Shown one piece after another: positions 20,945-32,509 of a stretch of 48,367 nt of DNA. Below the pieces are notes generated by a model that made no database searches, was not told the origin of the DNA, and saw only the letters and a program-made list of their open reading frames with translations. The translations under genes were made by a program, and so were the position numbers. Every line of letters begins with the position of its first letter. The first letter of the stretch is position 1. Location: assembly GCA_021890795.1 (NCBI GenBank), contig JAKKUO010000013.1:1-48367 (forward strand). The letters are read 5' to 3'. This stretch comes from Bacillota bacterium (GTDB taxonomy: Bacteria; Bacillota; Sulfobacillia; Symbiobacteriales; ZC4RG38).

Positions 20945-22522
20945 CTATCCGCCAGTAGACAGTTCAGGGAAGATCCCCTCCAGGGCCCGGTAGCACCGCC
21001 GGAAGAGCGGCACCAGAGCCTCGTACCGCCGGGCCAGGTCCGGATCCACCGGCACCTTCTCCCCGACCCGGACCATCGCCTCGCAGGCCGCCGGCACGGT
21101 GGGATAGAACCCGCTCCCCACCGCCGCCAGGATGGCGGCGCCGAAGGCCGGGCCCTCGTCGACGGCCATCAGCCGCAGGGGAATCCCCATCACGGCGGCC
21201 ATGATCGACCGCCAGATGGGGCTGCGGGCCCCGCCGCCGGTGATCCGGATCTCGGTGGGGGAGACCCCGAGGGCCCGGATCAGGTCCAGGGAGTCCCTGA
21301 GGCCAAGGGCGATGCCCTCCAGCACCGCCCGGGCCAGGTGCCGGCGGTCGTGGTGCAGCCCCAGCCCGACGAAGACCCCCCGGGCGTAGGGGTTGGCATG
21401 GGGAGTCCGCTCCCCGGTGAGATAAGGAAGGAAGAGCAGCCCCTCGGCCCCCGGCGGCACCTCCGCCGCCTCCCGGGTAATCCGGTCGTAGGGCTCCTGC
21501 CCCGCCGCCCGGTCCTCCTCCGCCTCCCGGCGGTAGAAGGTGTCCCGGAACCACCGCAGGGAGCCGCCGGAGCTGAGCATCACCCCCATCACGTGCCACA
21601 GGCCGGGCACCGCGTGGCAGAAGCTGTGCACCGTCCGGAGGCTCCGGGGGTCCAACCCCGGCGGAACCTGGGCCGCGCCGGCCTGGAGATGGCCCGGCCG
21701 CTCGGTGGGAGCAAAGACCACCCCCGAGGTGCCGACGCTCATGGAGACCTGTCCGGGGCGGACCAGGCCGACTCCCACGGCCCCCGCGGCCTGATCGCCG
21801 CCACCGGCCACCACCGGGATCCCCGGAGGCAGCCCCGTTTCCGCGGCTGCCTCCGGGGTGACCCGCCCGGTGATCTCGGGCCCCTCGTAGACCTCGGGCA
21901 GGATCGCCGGGTTCAGTTCCAGGGCGGCGATGATCTCCTGGGACCACCGGCGGGCGCCCACGTCCAGGAGCAGGGTGCCGGAGGCGTCCGCCACGTCGGT
22001 GGCCAGGGCGCCGCTGAGCCGGTACCGCAGGTAGTCCTTGGGGAGCAGCAGGTGTGCCAGGCGGGCGTAGTGCTCCGGCTCATGGCGCCGGAGCCAGAGC
22101 ACCTTGGGCGCCGTAAACCCGGTCAGGGCAGGATTGCCGGCAATTCGCAACAGGGTCTCGGTCCCCACCCTGTCCTCGATCTCCCGGCACTCCGCCACGG
22201 TGCGCTGGTCATTCCAGAGCAGGGCGGGCCGGATGACCTCCCCATGCCGGTCCAGGAAAACCGAACCGTGCATCTGGCCCGTCAGGCCGATGGCCTGGAT
22301 CTGCCCGGGCGAAACCTGCCCGGTGACCTGGCGGAAGCACCGGACAGCCGCCTGCCACCAGTCCCGGGGATCCTGTTCGGTCCATCCCGGCCGGGGGACG
22401 TGCAGGGGGTGCTCGGCGGTGGCCTGGGCCACCACCCGGCCGGCGGGGTCCACCGCCAGGACCCGGACCCCGCCGGTTCCGACGTCAACCCCGAGGAAGA
22501 GGGGCTCGGAGACGGGTGTCAC
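20945..22522 (-). CDS. xylB: Xylulokinase
   Basis: 525 aa, an FGGY-family sugar kinase that phosphorylates D-xylulose to xylulose 5-phosphate for the pentose phosphate pathway. Typical xylulokinase motifs are LFLGVDVGTGGVRVLAVD (phosphate 1), GLTGQMHGSVFLD, LLWNDQRT, TDVADASGTLLLDV, the catalytic Asp in AGGGDQAAGAVGVG, and ITGGGARSPIWRSIMA near the adenosine site. GTG at 22522 was chosen because AGGTG lies about 6 bases before it; another GTG 9 bases upstream abuts the ribosome site. It follows the isomerase gene by about 30 bases, so the pair is one operon under the XylR operator at 23708. Confidence 0.94.
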   Translation of the reverse strand: MTPVSEPLFLGVDVGTGGVRVLAVDPAGRVVAQATAEHPLHVPRPGWTEQDPRDWWQAAVRCFRQVTGQVSPGQIQAIGLTGQMHGSVFLDRHGEVIRPALLWNDQRTVAECREIEDRVGTETLLRIAGNPALTGFTAPKVLWLRRHEPEHYARLAHLLLPKDYLRYRLSGALATDVADASGTLLLDVGARRWSQEIIAALELNPAILPEVYEGPEITGRVTPEAAAETGLPPGIPVVAGGGDQAAGAVGVGLVRPGQVSMSVGTSGVVFAPTERPGHLQAGAAQVPPGLDPRSLRTVHSFCHAVPGLWHVMGVMLSSGGSLRWFRDTFYRREAEEDRAAGQEPYDRITREAAEVPPGAEGLLFLPYLTGERTPHANPYARGVFVGLGLHHDRRHLARAVLEGIALGLRDSLDLIRALGVSPTEIRITGGGARSPIWRSIMAAVMGIPLRLMAVDEGPAFGAAILAAVGSGFYPTVPAACEAMVRVGEKVPVDPDLARRYEALVPLFRRCYRALEGIFPELSTGG

Positions 22523-22552
22523 ATCACTCACCTGCCGACCCGGGAATGTAGG

Positions 22553-23617
22553 CTACCGCCGGCTGTACTTCTCATACACCTGCCGCTCAAACTCCTCGTC
22601 CAGGCCGAGGGCCTTCCAGAAGACCCGGTAGGCGCCGACGGCGTCGGCCCGGGCCTTGGCTGCGGCCAGCTCCTCGTCGTTCATCCGCTCGGCCACCGCG
22701 AGCATGTACTCCATCTGAATGACCGAGCGCTTGACGGCTTCGACGGGATCTTCGGTGTACGGGAAGAGGTCGAAGCCCAGGTACCCGTCGTACCCGCCCT
22801 TGAGCAACTCCCGCAGGATGTCGATCTGCTGCTCGATGAACTGGGCACCCACCATGTTGTCGTCGTCGAAGGTGCCCCAGCCGGAGTTGGCGTGCTGGTG
22901 GCCCAGGAGGCCCTCCGAGAGCAGCAGGGCCGCGTACTCCCCCAGGGGCTCCCCGTTCATGATCAGGTGCTGCCAGTCCATGTTCACCCGGACGTTGGAG
23001 ACGTCGGCGCCCATCTCCTTCAGCTTCTTGATGATGAAGAGGGTCATGCCGATGTTGCGCATCAGGATGCGCATCGCGGGCTCGCTGTTCTTGTGCTCGA
23101 GGTTGAAGAGCACGCCCTTCTCCTTGGCGTAGGTGACCACTTCCGCCAGCCCTTCCAGGAAGTACCCCCAGGTGCGGGCGTAGTCGCGCTGGAATGGATA
23201 GTTGTAACCTTCGTTCCCCGGCCAGTAGATGTAGTTAGCCCCCACCGCTGCCGCCAGGTCGATCCCCCGCTTGATGTGGGCCACCGCCTCCCGGCGCAGG
23301 GCGGGATCCGGATTGCTCAGGGCGCCGTACTGGAACCGGGGGTTGGGCACCAGGCCGTAGCAGATCATGGCGATGTGATGGTCCGGGGCGAGGATCTCCT
23401 GGATCTTGGCGGCGTTGTCGTCGGTGATCTCGGTCTCGTAGTGGAACTCGTAGCCGTCGATGAGCGGCCCGAGCCCCTCCACTGCCCACTTGAGCCGCTC
23501 GGTCACGTCCCGGTTCGCCAGCTCCGGCTTGTAGCCCCCGGGCATAAACCGGGTCGGCGCGATGCCGAAAGCCCAGATGCCCACGCTGGTGCGCCAACGC
23601 TTGGTGCTGACCTGCAT
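22553..23617 (-). CDS. Xylose-isomerase-like TIM-barrel sugar isomerase, unusual metal site
   Basis: 354 aa from ATG at 23617, with GGAGGAG 7 bases upstream. Its place as the first gene of an operon with xylulokinase says it makes xylulose from xylose. It aligns by eye with the xylose isomerase fold: NYIYWPGNEGYNYPF, E174-H-K176 at the EPKP position, D214-W-Q-H217 at the EANH position, H242 in GHQHANSG where XylA has Asp, and D283 in GFDLFPY. The predicted metal set Glu-Asp-His-Asp is that of the L-rhamnose isomerase type (Pseudomonas stutzeri), not the Glu-Glu-Asp-Asp of XylA. No FHDxD signature of XylA is present. An epimerase or another aldose isomerase function is possible. Confidence 0.8.
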   Translation of the reverse strand: MQVSTKRWRTSVGIWAFGIAPTRFMPGGYKPELANRDVTERLKWAVEGLGPLIDGYEFHYETEITDDNAAKIQEILAPDHHIAMICYGLVPNPRFQYGALSNPDPALRREAVAHIKRGIDLAAAVGANYIYWPGNEGYNYPFQRDYARTWGYFLEGLAEVVTYAKEKGVLFNLEHKNSEPAMRILMRNIGMTLFIIKKLKEMGADVSNVRVNMDWQHLIMNGEPLGEYAALLLSEGLLGHQHANSGWGTFDDDNMVGAQFIEQQIDILRELLKGGYDGYLGFDLFPYTEDPVEAVKRSVIQMEYMLAVAERMNDEELAAAKARADAVGAYRVFWKALGLDEEFERQVYEKYSRR

Positions 23618-23707
23618 CCGCGATCTCCTCCCCGTAAGCCGCACTCCCGTTGCCGATGCCCGATCCCGCTCGCCGCGGGGTCAGCCAGTCGGCGCCGGTC
23701 TGAGCCT

Positions 23708-23726
23708 TAGTTTGTTGATCAGACTA
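23708..23726. promoter_or_regulatory. XylR-type operator, xylB/isomerase promoter side
   Basis: TAGTTTGTTGATCAGACTA is an imperfect palindrome with 7 of 9 base pairs around a central G. Its left half with the preceding T (TTAGTTTGTT) is identical to the half-site of the Bacillus xyl operator. A similar sequence lies before the xylR gene in this window (31076-31097). Confidence 0.65.
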
Positions 23727-23875
23727 TCTATGACTGGGATTTCGCCGGGGGAATCGAATCTCCTGCCAGGCACCGAAAAAGCCCGGATTTTCTTTGCCGG
23801 TCCCCGGCCGGACCGCCCTGGCGGATCAGGATGTTCCCGGGACAAAAATGGCCTTCTGAGGCCGCTTGGGCCTTG

Positions 23876-23963: not shown

Positions 23964-26111
<2,148 letters not shown>

Positions 26112-26133
26112 CCCGGGCACCAACCTGGCCCGG

Positions 26134-26164
26134 GGACTCCTGGGAGTTCATCAATTGGGAGTCC
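26134..26164 (+). repeat. 7-bp inverted repeat after the GH52 gene
   Basis: GGACTCC (26134-26140) and GGAGTCC (26158-26164) flank a 17-base AT-richer loop containing TTCATCAATT. No U-run follows, so it may be an mRNA stability element or an operator rather than a terminator. Confidence 0.4.
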
Positions 26165-26292
26165 ATCGACCAGGCAGAGAGACGGAACCCCGCTGCGCCA
26201 GGAGAGGAGAATGCCATGGACCCACCAGGCCCAAGACTGCGTTGCGCGAGGGACAGAACATTGGGGAACACGACACCACGGAGGTGTGGCCG

Positions 26293-27606
26293 ATGCTCCG
26301 ATGGAATCGGCGGCTAGCGTCCACCCTGGTGGTCGCCCTGATGGTCCTCGGCCTCTTGGCCGGCTGCGGCGGTGGCCAGACGGGCGACCAGACAGGCACC
26401 CCGGGCTCCTCGGGCTCGGATCAGGTCACCATCACCTGGTGGCACATCTGGCAGGGCGAGCCGGAGGCCAAGTGGCAGGCGATCGCGGATGCCTACATGA
26501 AGGAGCACCCGAATGTCAAGATCGAGATCAACGTCTTCGAGAACGAGGCCTTCAAGCAGAAGATCGCCACCGCGATGCAGTCTGGTGACCCGCCGGACCT
26601 GTTCCAGAGCTGGGGCGGCGGCAGCCTGCGGGAGTACGTCAAGGCCGGGCTGGTCAAGGACATCACCGACGAGCTGCAGAAGGACGGATGGCTGGACAGC
26701 CTCGTCAACGCGGACCTCATGAGCGTGGACGGCCGGTACTACGGCATCCCGGTCAACGTCGGCATGGTCGGCTTCTGGTACAACAAGGATCTGTTCGCCA
26801 AGGCCGGCATCCAGGAAGAGCCGAAGACCTGGGATGAGTTCCTCGAGGTCGTGAAGAAGCTCAAGGCCGCGGGGATCACCCCCATCGCCCTCGGCGCCGG
26901 TGAGAAGTGGTCTGCGGCCTTCTACTGGGAGTACCTGGCCCTGCGCCTTGGGGGCAAGGACGCCTTCATGAAGGCCTATACCCGGAATGGCGGTTCCTTT
27001 GCGGATCCTCCCTTCGTGGAGGCCGGCAAGAAGCTGAAGGAGCTCATCGACCTGCTGCCGTTCCAGGACGGGTTCCTGTCGGCCACCGTTCCGGATGAGT
27101 ACACCCTGATGGCCACCGAGAACGCGGCCATCCAGCTCATGGGGCACTGGGCGCCGTACAGCATCCGGGATAGCTCCGCCGACAAGCAGGGCCTGGGCGA
27201 CAAGCTCGGCTGGTTCCCGTTCCCGGCGGTACCGGGCGGCGCGGGTGATCCCAACGATGCCCTGGGCGGCGGCGACGGGATCGCGGTGGGCAAGAACGCG
27301 CCGCCGGAAGCCATCGACTTCCTGCGCTTCCTTTCCAAGAAGGAGAACTTGCGGGACCTGGTGGAGAGCGGGAACATCCTGCCGGCGACAAAGGGCGCAG
27401 AGGAGTACGTGCAGGACCCGTTGCTGAGGGAACTGGTCCAGACCAAGGCCAAGGCCCAGTACCTCCAGGTCTACTATGACCAGTTCCTGCCCCCGGCCGC
27501 TGGGCAGGCGGTCAACGACTACGTGCAGCAGCTCTTCGCCGGCCTGAAGACGCCGGAGGAAGTGGCCCAGGGGATCGAGGCCGCATACGCCGCTGAGGCA
27601 CGCTGA
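26293..27606 (+). CDS. Sugar ABC transporter substrate-binding lipoprotein
   Basis: 437 aa from ATG with GGAGGTG 6 bases upstream. The signal peptide ends in lipobox LLAGC (C25), followed by a Gly/Ser/Thr linker. The mature part is a cluster 1/MalE-type binding protein: ITWWHIWQGEPEAKWQAIAD, HPNVKIEINVFENEAFKQKI, YYGIPVNVGMVGFWYNKDLF, KTWDEFLEVVKKLKAAGITP, and a C-terminal TPEEVAQGIEAAYA. It captures sugars outside the membrane for the two permeases encoded next. The locus makes xylose or xylo-oligosaccharides the likely ligand. No ATPase gene is in the operon, so a shared MsmX-type ATPase elsewhere probably energises it. Confidence 0.93.
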   Translation: MLRWNRRLASTLVVALMVLGLLAGCGGGQTGDQTGTPGSSGSDQVTITWWHIWQGEPEAKWQAIADAYMKEHPNVKIEINVFENEAFKQKIATAMQSGDPPDLFQSWGGGSLREYVKAGLVKDITDELQKDGWLDSLVNADLMSVDGRYYGIPVNVGMVGFWYNKDLFAKAGIQEEPKTWDEFLEVVKKLKAAGITPIALGAGEKWSAAFYWEYLALRLGGKDAFMKAYTRNGGSFADPPFVEAGKKLKELIDLLPFQDGFLSATVPDEYTLMATENAAIQLMGHWAPYSIRDSSADKQGLGDKLGWFPFPAVPGGAGDPNDALGGGDGIAVGKNAPPEAIDFLRFLSKKENLRDLVESGNILPATKGAEEYVQDPLLRELVQTKAKAQYLQVYYDQFLPPAAGQAVNDYVQQLFAGLKTPEEVAQGIEAAYAAEAR

Positions 27607-27732: not shown

Positions 27733-28683
27733 ATGTCGCTGACAGGAACGGCTCGTTCCGGGCCGACCGCCCGAGCTTCGGGCCGCTCGTCCACCAGCCG
27801 GAACCGCAGCCTGACCATCGCACTCTTCTTGCTCCCGGCCCTGATCCTGTACCTGCTCTTCGTCCTCTGGCCCGTGGTGCAGGCCGCCAGGTACTCGGTC
27901 TACCGGTGGAACGGCCTGGGCCCCCTGGAGGACCCGGTGGGCATGGCCAACTACCTCCGGGCCCTGGCGGACCCGGTCTTCCGCAAGGCCCTCAGCAACA
28001 ACCTGCTCATCGCCGGGCTCTCCCTCCTCATCCAGTTGCCCTTCGCCCTGGCCCTGGCGCTGATGGTGGGCCGTTCCCTGCCGGGCAAGACCTTTTTCCG
28101 GACCGTCTTCTTTCTCCCGTATGTCCTGGCGGACGTCGCCACCGCGGTCATGTGGCGCTCGATCTACAACCCCCAGTTCGGCCTGATCAACTACCTGGCC
28201 AAGATGTTCGGCCTCAGGCCCCAGGCCTGGCTGAGTGACCCGGACAAGGCCATGTACGCCATCTTCGCGGTGATCACCTGGAAGTACTTCGGCTACCACC
28301 TGGTCCTGTACATGGCCGGCCTGCAGAACATCCCCAAGGAACTGGAAGAAGCCGCCCTCATCGACGGCTGCAGCACCTGGCAGCGGATCCGGTACGTCAC
28401 CCTGCCGCTTCTCGGCAGCACCATCCGCCTGAGCGTCTTCCTCTCGGTGCTGGGGTCCATCCAGTTCTTCGACCTCATCTGGATCATGACCGGCGGCGGC
28501 CCGTCCCACGCCACCGAGACGATGGTCACGTACCTCTACAAGTTCGGCTTCCAGCGTTACGCCCTCGGATACGGAAGCGCCGTTGCCGTGATCCTCTTTG
28601 TCCTCAGCCTGTTCTTCTCCCTGGCCTACCAGCGGTTTGTCATGGCCCGGGACCTGGAGGCCAGCGGGCTGGCCCGCAACTGA
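27733..28683 (+). CDS. Sugar ABC transporter permease, MalF/UgpA type
   Basis: 316 aa from ATG. After a Ser/Arg-rich cytoplasmic start of about 28 residues come six membrane helices. The EAA loop that docks the ATPase is ELEEAALIDGCSTWQRIRYVTLPLL (residues about 213-237), with the conserved EAA---G spacing. FVLWPVVQAARYSVYRWNG near the N-terminus is typical of the MalF-like partner of carbohydrate uptake (CUT1) transporters. The next gene encodes the second permease. Confidence 0.93.
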   Translation: MSLTGTARSGPTARASGRSSTSRNRSLTIALFLLPALILYLLFVLWPVVQAARYSVYRWNGLGPLEDPVGMANYLRALADPVFRKALSNNLLIAGLSLLIQLPFALALALMVGRSLPGKTFFRTVFFLPYVLADVATAVMWRSIYNPQFGLINYLAKMFGLRPQAWLSDPDKAMYAIFAVITWKYFGYHLVLYMAGLQNIPKELEEAALIDGCSTWQRIRYVTLPLLGSTIRLSVFLSVLGSIQFFDLIWIMTGGGPSHATETMVTYLYKFGFQRYALGYGSAVAVILFVLSLFFSLAYQRFVMARDLEASGLARN

Positions 28684-28704: not shown

Positions 28705-29556
28705 GTGCATGCCAGCAACGCTATCCGCAAACGCAGAGTGGACGTGGGCACGTGGCTGCGGGTCCTCATCTGTTCCCTCGTGGCCCTCGTCGTCCTGGTC
28801 CCCCTGGTCAGCACGGCCATCAACGGCCTCAAGACCCACGGCCAACTGATGGCAGACCCCTTCGGCCTGCCTTCCCCGGCCCACTGGTCGAACTACCAGT
28901 CGGTGCTGACCAACAGCCGGTTCTGGCAACAGCTTAAGAACTCGACCATCGTCACCCTGGCCACGGTGGGACTCACCCTGCTGGTGGGGAGCATGGCTGC
29001 CTTTGTCCTCGCCCGGTACGAGTTTGCCGGCCGGAAGTTCACCTTCAACCTCTTCATCCTGGGGATGCTCTTCCCCACCTCCGTCGCCATGCTGCCCCTC
29101 TACATCCTGATCCGGCAGGTGGGGCTCATCGACAGCCACTGGGGCGTCATCCTCCCCCAGGTGGCCTTCGGCCTGCCCGTCAGCATCCTCATCCTCCGGG
29201 ACTACTTCCGGGGCATCCCGGTGGAGCTGGAAGAGGCCGCGGTGATCGACGGCTGCAGCCCCTTCACCTTCTTCTGGCGGATCCTCCTCCCCCTCTCCCG
29301 CCCGGCCCTGGCCGCCGTCGCGGTGCTGAGTATGGTGGGTAGCTGGAACGCCTTCCTGCTGCCCCTGCTGGTCCTGAACGACCGGGACACCTGGACCCTG
29401 CCCCTGGGGGTCATGCAGTTCCAGGGCCAGTACACCAGCGACTGGGCGCTGGTCATGGCCTTTGTCACCGTGTCGATGCTGCCCGCGGTGATCTTCTTCC
29501 TGCTGGCCGAGCGGCACCTGATTGCCGGCCTGACCGCCGGCAGCGTGAAAGGCTAG
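28705..29556 (+). CDS. Sugar ABC transporter permease, MalG/UgpE type
   Basis: 283 aa from GTG with GGGAGG about 9 bases upstream. Six membrane helices are present. The EAA loop is ELEEAAVIDGCSPFTFFWRILLPL, and the upstream FPTSVAMLPLYILIRQVGLIDSHWG is a hallmark of the MalG-like subunit. The intergenic gap to the preceding permease is 21 bp. Together with that gene and the binding protein it forms a CUT1-type importer. Confidence 0.93.
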   Translation: MHASNAIRKRRVDVGTWLRVLICSLVALVVLVPLVSTAINGLKTHGQLMADPFGLPSPAHWSNYQSVLTNSRFWQQLKNSTIVTLATVGLTLLVGSMAAFVLARYEFAGRKFTFNLFILGMLFPTSVAMLPLYILIRQVGLIDSHWGVILPQVAFGLPVSILILRDYFRGIPVELEEAAVIDGCSPFTFFWRILLPLSRPALAAVAVLSMVGSWNAFLLPLLVLNDRDTWTLPLGVMQFQGQYTSDWALVMAFVTVSMLPAVIFFLLAERHLIAGLTAGSVKG

Positions 29557-29614: not shown

Positions 29615-31012
29615 TTGGAGTTCCTGCGGACCCAAGGCAAGTACATCGTCAACGAATCCGGCCAGAAGGTCTTTCTCCGGGGGGTCTGCTTTGGCGGCTG
29701 GCTCAACATGGAGAACTTCATCACCGGCTACCCCGGGGCAGAGAGCACCCTGCGCCAGGCCATCCGGTCGGAGCTCGGGGAGGAACGGTACCAGGCCTTC
29801 TTCCAAAGCTTTCTGGACGCCTTCATCACAGAAGACGATTTCCGGTTTCTCAAAGAGCTGGGGGCGACGGTCGTCCGGATCCCCTTCAACTATCGCCACT
29901 TTGAGGACGACCAGCGCCCTGGCGAGTACAAGGAAGAGGGGTTTGTCTACCTGGACCGGGCCGTGGGCTGGGCCAGGAAGTACGGCATCTACGTGATCCT
30001 GGACCTCCACGCCGCACCGGGCTGGCAGAACCAGGGCTGGCATTCGGACAATCCGTACGGGGTCGCGCTCCTGTGGGAGCACCGCCAGTTCCGGGAGCGG
30101 GGGCGCGACCTCTGGGTGCACATCGCCCGGCGCTACCGGGACGAGCCGGCGGTAGCAGGGTACAACCTTCTCAACGAGCCCAACGCCCCCTCGATGGCAG
30201 ACCTCAACAGCCTGTACCGGGACTGGGTCCAGGCCATCCGGGCGGTCGACAACCGGCACATCCTCTTTCTGGAAGGAAACGCCTACTCCCGGGTCTTTGA
30301 CGGCCTGGACGAGCCCTGGGACGACAACCTGGTCTACAGCTCTCACAACTACACCGTTCCGACCCACCGGGCCCGGACCTACCCCGGCCAGGTGGCGGGG
30401 ATCTACGCGGACCGGGCTTACATGGAGCGGGTCTTCCTCGAGACCAACCGCTGGATCCTGGAGCGGCAAGTGCCCTCCTGGGTCGGGGAGTTCGGCGCCC
30501 TCTTCGACGGCCCGGTCCATGAACCCAGGGGCGCCGACCTGGCCCGGCTGCGAGCCCTCCGGGACCAGCTCGCGATCTTCAACGAGTACGAGCAGCACTG
30601 GACCATTTGGACCTACAAGGACATCGGGGCCCAGGGGCTCCGGGTCAGCCGGGCCGATTCCGAGTACATGCGCCGGATCCGTCCGATCCTGGAGGCGAAA
30701 CGGCGCCTCGGCCTCGATGCCTGGACCTCCCGGGATGGCGGCCGGTTAATGGTCCAGATGCGGGCTATCCTGGAGATGATGATCGCGGAACTGGACGACT
30801 TCAGCCTGGATACCGAAGCCCTGGCCAAGGCCCTCGGGGAAAGGGCCGTCTACGGGCTGTTGGCCGGGGCTCTGGCCCCACTCTACGCGGCCCAGTTCCA
30901 GGACATGAGCGCCGCGGAGCTCGCAGAGATGCACCGGGAGGCGTTCCTCTTCAGCCATACCGAGGAGCGGTCCTACTTGGTTGAGGTACTGCGTGATGCG
31001 CTGAAGCCGTGA
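29615..31012 (+). CDS. GH5-like intracellular glycoside hydrolase
   Basis: 465 aa from TTG with GGAGGTG about 7 bases upstream. The clan GH-A barrel is recognisable: KVFLRGVCFGGWLNMENF, ELGATVVRIPFNYRHF, YVILDLHAAPGWQN, the acid/base E188 in YNLLNEPNAP, and the nucleophile E292 in SWVGEFGALF. WTIWTYKDIG marks the last barrel strand. About 110 further residues (355-465) form a charged helical extension of unknown role. No signal peptide is present. GH5 covers many beta-glycanase and glycosidase activities. Here an enzyme trimming branched or short xylo- or gluco-oligosaccharides is likely but unproven. It is the last gene of the plus-strand operon. Confidence 0.85.
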   Translation: MEFLRTQGKYIVNESGQKVFLRGVCFGGWLNMENFITGYPGAESTLRQAIRSELGEERYQAFFQSFLDAFITEDDFRFLKELGATVVRIPFNYRHFEDDQRPGEYKEEGFVYLDRAVGWARKYGIYVILDLHAAPGWQNQGWHSDNPYGVALLWEHRQFRERGRDLWVHIARRYRDEPAVAGYNLLNEPNAPSMADLNSLYRDWVQAIRAVDNRHILFLEGNAYSRVFDGLDEPWDDNLVYSSHNYTVPTHRARTYPGQVAGIYADRAYMERVFLETNRWILERQVPSWVGEFGALFDGPVHEPRGADLARLRALRDQLAIFNEYEQHWTIWTYKDIGAQGLRVSRADSEYMRRIRPILEAKRRLGLDAWTSRDGGRLMVQMRAILEMMIAELDDFSLDTEALAKALGERAVYGLLAGALAPLYAAQFQDMSAAELAEMHREAFLFSHTEERSYLVEVLRDALKP

Positions 31013-31097: not shown

Positions 31098-31291
31098 AAA
31101 CGCGGCCCGCAGCACTCTCGACTTCCTGCGCTTCCGTGGACCCCAACCCCCCCGGGAACCACAGGGGCCGCCGGGGTGGAGAAGGCCCCGACGCCCTTGT
31201 CCTACCACGGCGACAGGAGTCATTCTCGTATGAAGGAACTCGCCGCGATGCTTCGTGGCCACAGGCGATACCGGGTCGGAGGAGAAGTACG

Positions 31292-32509
31292 TTGAACGTT
31301 CGCACAGGCGACCATATGTTTGTCAAGCAGCTCAACAAAACCATTGTCCTCAACACCCTGCGCCGCCACTCGCCCATCTCCCGGGCGGAGATCGCCAAGA
31401 TTACCGGGCTGAACAAGTCGACGGTCTCCGCGCTAGTGGACGAGTTGCTCAACGAGCACCTGGCCAGGGAGATCGGTCCGGGGGCATCCCAGGGCGGCCG
31501 CCGGCCCCAGCTGCTCGTCCTGAACACCCGGGCCGGGGTGGTGGTGGGCGCGGAGATTGGGGTCAACTACCTGACGGTCATCATCCAGGACCTGCTGGGT
31601 CAGCCCATCTGGCAACACCGGGCCGGCCTGCGGGATCCCCATAACCCGGAAACCACCCTGGGGCAGCTGGCGGACACCATCCGCCAGGGGCTTCAGCACG
31701 TTCCGGAGACGCCCCTGGGGCTGATGGGGATCGGCCTCGGGATCCCCGGGCTGGTGGACTACGAACACGGCCGGTTGCTCTTCGCCCCCAACCTCCGGTG
31801 GGAAGATGTCGACGTCCGGGCCTGGTTCCAGGAGCGATTTGAGGCCCCCGTGAAGGTGGACAACGAGGCCAACGCCGGCGCCCTCGCGGAGCACTGGTCC
31901 GGCGCCGGCGCCGGCCTGCAGAATGTGGTCTACTTCAGCCTGGGCATCGGCATCGGCGCCGGGATCATCATCCAGGGCGAACTCTACCGGGGTCACGGGG
32001 GGCTCGCCGGGGAACTGGGCCATACCACCATCGACATGAGCGGCCCCCTGTGCTCTTGCGGCAGCCGGGGGTGCCTGGAGGCCATGGCCTCGGAAGCGGC
32101 GCTGCGGCGGTATTTCACCGCGCACCCAGCGTACACCGCACCCATTCCCGAACCGGAACCGGGCCCCGACCACCCGGCTCCCTTTATCGAGGGGATCGTC
32201 CAGGCCGCCAAGGAGGGGAACGGGGCAGCCATCGCCGCCCTGCGGGACGTGGGCCGGTACCTGGGGATCGGCATCGCCAACGCGATCAACACCTTCAATC
32301 CCCAGCGGGTGATCATCGGCGGACCCCTGGCCCTCGGCGGCGACAACCTCTTGAACCCGGCGCGGCAGGTGGTCCGGGAGCGGGCCCTGGCCGCCCCCCG
32401 GGAGCAGGCGGAGATCACCCTCTCCGCCCACGGCCCCGATGCCTGCGCCATCGGCGCTGGCGTCCTGATCCTCGAAGACCTCTACCGCTTGCCCGCGGTG
32501 GTCCTCTGA
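31292..32509 (+). CDS. xylR: Xylose repressor XylR (ROK family)
   Basis: 405 aa from TTG at 31292 with GGAGGAG 7 bases upstream; an ATG 24 bases later is possible. The N-terminal winged helix (about residues 10-70) matches Bacillus XylR closely: HSPISRAEIAKITGLNKSTV and SQGGRRPQLLVLN. The ROK sugar-binding part follows with GIGLGIPGLVDYEHG, VDNEANAGALAEH, GHTTIDMSGPLCSCGSRGC (CxCGxxGC zinc motif) and IANAINTFNPQRVIIGG. XylR releases DNA when xylose binds. Two operator-like sites in the window, at 23708 and 31076, carry the known XylR half-site pattern. It is the last plus-strand gene of the xylose locus and is followed by a terminator hairpin. Confidence 0.93.
   Translation: MNVRTGDHMFVKQLNKTIVLNTLRRHSPISRAEIAKITGLNKSTVSALVDELLNEHLAREIGPGASQGGRRPQLLVLNTRAGVVVGAEIGVNYLTVIIQDLLGQPIWQHRAGLRDPHNPETTLGQLADTIRQGLQHVPETPLGLMGIGLGIPGLVDYEHGRLLFAPNLRWEDVDVRAWFQERFEAPVKVDNEANAGALAEHWSGAGAGLQNVVYFSLGIGIGAGIIIQGELYRGHGGLAGELGHTTIDMSGPLCSCGSRGCLEAMASEAALRRYFTAHPAYTAPIPEPEPGPDHPAPFIEGIVQAAKEGNGAAIAALRDVGRYLGIGIANAINTFNPQRVIIGGPLALGGDNLLNPARQVVRERALAAPREQAEITLSAHGPDACAIGAGVLILEDLYRLPAVVL

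Follow-up and report, generated by a model that had tools for sequence, protein, structure and literature searches.

Gene neighbourhood and promoter

The window is the whole stretch of DNA that we analysed, a 48,367-nucleotide contig (JAKKUO010000013.1 of assembly GCA_021890795.1) from a Bacillota bacterium. At 22553..23617, on the minus strand, it carries a gene for a candidate xylose isomerase, whose ATG at 23617 follows a GGAGGAG ribosome site by about 7 nt and whose stop lies at 22553. The product has 354 residues and matches the TIM-barrel family AP_endonuc_2 (PF01261) in Pfam. The original prediction had given the same, correct coordinates, the gene being read from the minus strand, and had placed it directly before a xylulokinase gene. 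This also held, as xylB (20945..22531, minus strand) lies 21 bp downstream in the same direction. Its product scores 551.9 bits against TIGR01312 (cut-off 380.25), whereas rhamnulokinase models gave at most 63 bits.

Divergent from the candidate isomerase gene, on the plus strand, lies a gene for a GH52 beta-xylosidase (23964..26111; PF03512, E-value 7.5e-159). This is followed on the same strand by genes for a sugar ABC transporter substrate-binding protein (26092..27606; PF01547), two sugar ABC transporter permeases (27733..28683 and 28705..29556; both PF00528), a GH5 family glycoside hydrolase (29615..31012; PF00150) and a ROK regulator with an N-terminal winged helix (31136..32509; PF00480 plus HTH), which is a candidate XylR.

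A XylR-like palindrome, TTAGTTTGTTGATCAGACTAT, is located at 23707..23727, 90 bp upstream of the isomerase gene and between it and the GH52 gene. Its left ten bases equal a half-site of the Bacillus subtilis xyl operator TTAGTTTGTTTGGGCAACAAACTAA (PMC12034463), while its eight-base half-sites are 5 bp apart, compared to 9 bp in the B. subtilis operator. The palindrome is imperfect, and therefore a repeat-tool search at the promoter returned no inverted repeat before a pattern search detected it. Allowing at most one mismatch, the pattern occurs once in the whole genome. Since a reversed control pattern was likewise found once, the count by itself is weak evidence, and the argument depends on where the site lies. 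At locus L104, ATAGTTTGATGATCAAACTAA is found 38 bp ahead of the orthologue (71% identical), in the interval that separates it from a divergent ROK gene. The product of that ROK gene is 52% identical to the ROK regulator in the window. A looser palindrome with more mismatches lies about 42 bp upstream of the family gene in Thermoanaerobacter wiegelii.

Active-site residues

Residues E174, K176, D214, H217, H242 and D283, all listed in the original prediction, are present and align with the metal-ligand positions of XylA and L-rhamnose isomerase. The alignment also matched W15, H59 and W132 to XylA W16, H54 and W137, W16 and W137 being the two tryptophans in XylA numbering. D251 and D253, absent from the earlier list, match the remaining XylA M2 ligands D255 and D257. 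In XylA, M1 is bound by E181, E217, D245 and D287 and M2 by E217, H220, D255 and D257, next to a catalytic lysine and H54 (PMC11194214). The M1 set of XylA is thus Glu-Glu-Asp-Asp, as originally proposed. The Glu-Asp-His-Asp set attributed to L-rhamnose isomerase likewise agrees with the literature on E. coli-type residues (PMC10987364) and with four L-rhamnose isomerases that scored above the cut-off.

By this alignment, M1 in the window protein would be held by E174, D214, H242 and D283, and M2 by D214, H217, D251 and D253, with K176, E179, H59, W15 and W132 as further active-site residues. The protein resembles XylA of classes I and II in its position before xylB, in its fold (Z about 35 for class I), in Lys176, His59, Trp15 and Trp132, in the two-metal layout and in the M2 residues H217, D251 and D253. 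It differs from XylA at M1, where Asp214 replaces a Glu and His242 an Asp, a set that it shares with L-rhamnose isomerases of the Pseudomonas stutzeri and E. coli types. The eight metal and lysine positions, together with W15, H59 and W132, were invariant in 60 of 60 relatives that came from many phyla and were 49-88% identical to the window protein. This invariance indicates that the residue pattern did not arise by chance.

Relation to known isomerases

The 354-residue protein passed no NCBIfam equivalog cut-off. It scored 74.9 bits against class I XylA (TIGR02631, cut-off 447), 37.3 bits against class II XylA (TIGR02630, cut-off 533) and 74.4 bits against L-rhamnose isomerase (TIGR02635, cut-off 531), while epimerase models gave at most 26 bits. 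Family members are mostly 332-365 residues long, compared to about 385-440 for XylA.

The phylogeny called for in the original prediction was inferred in a careful tree. The family forms its own clade (support 100/99), and a starred branch (99/96) sets class I and II XylA apart from the rest. L-rhamnose isomerase is the nearest clade, at 90/86, which is below star level. An AU test rejected a clade made up of the family and class I XylA only (p 0.0005), whereas a clade of the family and both XylA classes was not rejected (p 0.11).

Structure prediction and superposition, also proposed originally, were carried out with AlphaFold2 (pLDDT 92.9, pTM 0.90; model without metals). In VIA-align, over about 320 residues each, this model matched 3ktc with a Z value of 37.1, class I XylA with 35.5 and L-rhamnose isomerase with 34.3. 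The last two values are too close to tell XylA from L-rhamnose isomerase. Identity to the P. stutzeri L-rhamnose isomerase was about 20% over the structural alignment. The structure 3ktc, a putative sugar isomerase of Pectobacterium from structural genomics, was the best PDB match in both sequence (98 bits) and fold (Z 37.1, 24% identity). Unlike the window protein, it has an Asp aligned to His242. We know of no functional test of 3ktc. Its relatives in our phylum sample form their own clade and mostly lack a close xylB homologue alongside.

The Glu-Asp-His-Asp set is not limited to the family. It was found in the four above-cut-off L-rhamnose isomerases and one close relative, and in all 16 of the 3ktc-like proteins that we read; in 3ktc itself, the third position is aligned with an Asp. 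XylA has Glu-Glu-Asp-Asp, and another clade has Glu-Glu-His-Asp. From these sequences, a His at the third M1 position is the more widespread state in this region of the superfamily, and Asp is the state of XylA. As the 3ktc-like clade carries the same set, Glu-Asp-His-Asp says little about the substrate, and we rejected it as a pointer to rhamnose.

The Glu-Glu-His-Asp clade is a second uncharacterised group, with open frames of 385-427 residues (L067:6686-7882(-), L187:6402-7682(-), L188:6380-7534(-) and L189:4395-5600(+); also L066, L190, L191 and L192). Its best model is TIGR02631, at 98-102 of the required 447 bits. It adjoins xylB in several genomes without class II XylA, and possibly represents another xylose isomerase lineage.

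Isomerases in the source genome

The source genome, that of a heat-loving compost bacterium, measures 2.79 Mb and has an estimated completeness of 100%. A search for a canonical xylA elsewhere in this genome, as the original prediction had proposed, returned no protein above the cut-off of either XylA model, and a hidden canonical xylA was therefore rejected. We also rejected a FucI-type XylA-II, since the genome contains no FucI-type isomerase or PF02952 match. L-rhamnose isomerase above the cut-off was likewise absent from the genome. One other AP_endonuc_2 protein is encoded on a different contig and is far from the XylA models. The gene in the window is thus the sole xylose isomerase candidate in the source genome, and it lies inside a xylose operon.

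Distribution and linkage to xylB

Scanning genome contigs yielded 153 relatives of the window protein, of which 80 were kept. These come from Bacillota, Chloroflexota, Actinomycetota, Dormibacteraeota, Planctomycetes, Elusimicrobia, Acetothermia, Sumerlaeota and a few others; most are metagenome bins, and isolated outlying phyla may therefore stem from errors in binning. The closest relative, in MAG ZC4RG38, is 99% identical. Plasmid records held only distant relatives, at most 35% identical among the matches listed, and the annotated ones were labelled TIM barrel protein or sugar phosphate isomerase/epimerase.

A XylB homologue was found in the examined flank of 58 of the 80 relatives, and in 45 of these 58 it lies no more than about 400 bp downstream and is read in the same direction. 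The other 22 loci, some of them with full flanks, had no XylB in the examined flank. Our phylum sample comprised 398 genomes. An intact family gene was present in 14 of them, in one case split across contig ends, and every one of the 14 carried an above-cut-off XylB, which 99 of the 398 genomes had overall (p 1.7e-9). Within these 99, the family and class II XylA overlapped once where 5.2 cases were expected (p 0.009). Both p-values overstate independence, because the genomes are related. Canonical XylA above the cut-off was absent from 47 of 50 family genomes, although missing sequence may explain some of these cases, several of the genomes being incomplete metagenome bins. Of the other three, two have class I XylA and T. 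wiegelii has class II. For class I XylA, the search covered the family genomes and a few neighbours among the 398, with none above the cut-off in 19. A genome of the same class as the source organism (G327) has a class I XylA beside xylB, and G341 encodes a full RhaI as well as a family member next to xylB.

Both isomerase forms occur together in T. wiegelii Rt8.B1 (L134:7995-11886), where the family gene, a canonical class II xylA and xylB stand in tandem in one direction. The family gene ends 35 bp before the class II xylA, and xylB lies about 17 bp further on. A recent acquisition as a step towards replacement, redundancy, or a different substrate could each explain this tandem. In two Actinomycetota MAGs (G443 and G445; loci L175 and L177), the family gene adjoins xylB, and a class I XylA is encoded at another place in the genome. 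Such pairs may reflect redundancy or a difference in substrate.

Other neighbourhoods were also observed. In Rubrobacter taiwanensis (L139:1890-14668), a ROK gene, importer genes (assigned partly by position and by a 40% permease match), GH5, the family gene and xylB, then GH3 and GH2, follow each other in one direction, and no GH52 was seen at this locus. The likeness to the window suggests that the gene unit has moved between phyla. A subgroup 62-66% identical to the window protein (L107, L108 and L109) has no xylB in the examined flank, and in all three a M24 metallopeptidase gene directly follows the family gene. A PfkB-type sugar kinase gene, not xylB, follows the family gene in a Euryarchaeota MAG (L179:7995-10001). 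At L048:8569-10148 (G183, same class as the source organism), the family gene is cut to residues 186-353 and the divergent ROK gene to residues from 133. These remnants lie 63 bp apart, and xylB remains. A single deletion appears to account for the loss of both 5' ends and of the intervening region. G183 is predicted to be a natural loss mutant that is unable to use xylose.

Function of the candidate isomerase

The data make it highly probable that the gene encodes the organism's working D-xylose isomerase, a lineage-distinct enzyme that has replaced XylA. This reading follows from its neighbours (xylulokinase, GH52, ABC importer, GH5 and ROK), the XylR-like site and the lack of any other known isomerase in the genome. 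It also follows from the xylB linkage, the absence of XylA from most family genomes, the confidently predicted fold and the invariant XylA-type catalytic and metal positions. Counting against it are the tree, which places the family nearer to L-rhamnose isomerase, the XylA-bearing T. wiegelii and Actinomycetota genomes, and the 22 loci without visible xylB. The T. wiegelii tandem and these 22 loci keep us from a firmer statement. The original prediction that a non-orthologous enzyme has taken the xylose isomerase role is thus favoured by context and by XylA absence, but the protein is a distant homologue within the same TIM-barrel superfamily and not an unrelated fold.

We infer the metal binding, chemistry, substrate and regulation as follows. 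Xylo-oligosaccharides would be imported by the ABC transporter and cut to xylose by the GH52 beta-xylosidase. The isomerase would bind two divalent metals in one site, M1 at E174, D214, H242 and D283 and M2 at D214, H217, D251 and D253. H59 would assist ring opening of the sugar, and O1 would be polarised by K176 and M2. D-xylose would then become D-xylulose by a metal-assisted 1,2-hydride shift, and XylB would phosphorylate the D-xylulose. The XylR-type ROK protein would act as a repressor via the palindrome at 23707-23727.

The original prediction had also raised an operon for another aldose, which context and XylA absence make much less likely than xylose. Such an enzyme would act on a sugar whose ketose XylB accepts, most plausibly turning D-lyxose into D-xylulose, or would isomerise a broad range of pentoses, xylose being a side substrate. 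Its Glu-Asp-His-Asp set is common to broad-specificity L-rhamnose isomerases, and in T. wiegelii a canonical xylA sits in the same operon. However, the source genome would then have no known xylose isomerase despite its GH52, XylB and XylR-like site. In addition, 47 of 50 family genomes lack canonical XylA, and D-lyxose is rare in nature. We therefore consider this explanation unlikely. An epimerase or accessory step, for example a ketopentose epimerase, with xylose handled by an undetected isomerase or an oxidative pathway, is very improbable. Many AP_endonuc_2 proteins are epimerases, but the window protein differs from the epimerases with one metal in that it retains the two metal sites of XylA together with its lysine and its ring-opening histidine. 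The fold search was led by 3ktc, XylA and L-rhamnose isomerase, and the low epimerase scores point the same way.

That an L-rhamnose isomerase stands beside xylB by chance is extremely improbable, even though the metal set is the same, TIGR02635 is the best or near-best NCBIfam match and the nearest clade is L-rhamnose isomerase. The score lies far below the cut-off, the family is a separate starred clade, and the neighbouring kinase is a xylulokinase and not a rhamnulokinase. Linkage to xylB recurs in 58 of the 80 loci, which largely refutes this explanation, and G341 has a full RhaI in addition to its family member. A rhamnose operon was rejected on kinase identity and linkage.

A precedent for the preferred reading, replacement of XylA, is XylA-II of Clostridium acetobutylicum. 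This FucI-family protein replaces XylA before xylB, which a knockout, its complementation and an assay have established (Gu et al. 2010, PMC2873477). Both cases have a different protein in XylA's place before xylB. Unlike the window protein (PF01261), XylA-II belongs to an unrelated family (PF02952). Species with both xylose isomerase forms are also on record (Gu et al. 2010, PMC2873477), which T. wiegelii parallels.

Significance

We think it fairly likely that the clade is a third TIM-barrel xylose isomerase lineage with a mixed Glu-Asp-His-Asp site, spread over many phyla (Bacillota, Chloroflexota, Actinomycetota and others) and replacing XylA in most carriers. Its metal and acid preferences may differ from those of industrial glucose isomerases. 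A literature search, which covered mostly freely accessible papers, found no description of a third xylose isomerase class or of the family in Rubrobacter, Thermogemmatispora or T. wiegelii.

Because the family genes stay below the cut-off of every curated xylA model, pathway tools would miss a probable xylose isomerase, an annotation gap that recognition of this lineage would close. Few enzymes are used in industry as much as xylose isomerase, which serves in the conversion of glucose to fructose and in xylose fermentation by yeast. If our reading is correct, a separate lineage, represented here by the enzyme of a thermophile, in which one acidic M1 ligand has become a histidine, would provide a new scaffold. 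It would also be a natural experiment on how substrate and metal preferences depend on the metal site. One enzyme has probably been replaced by another at a key step in the use of plant sugars, and many distantly related microbes also appear to convert xylose with this XylA relative.
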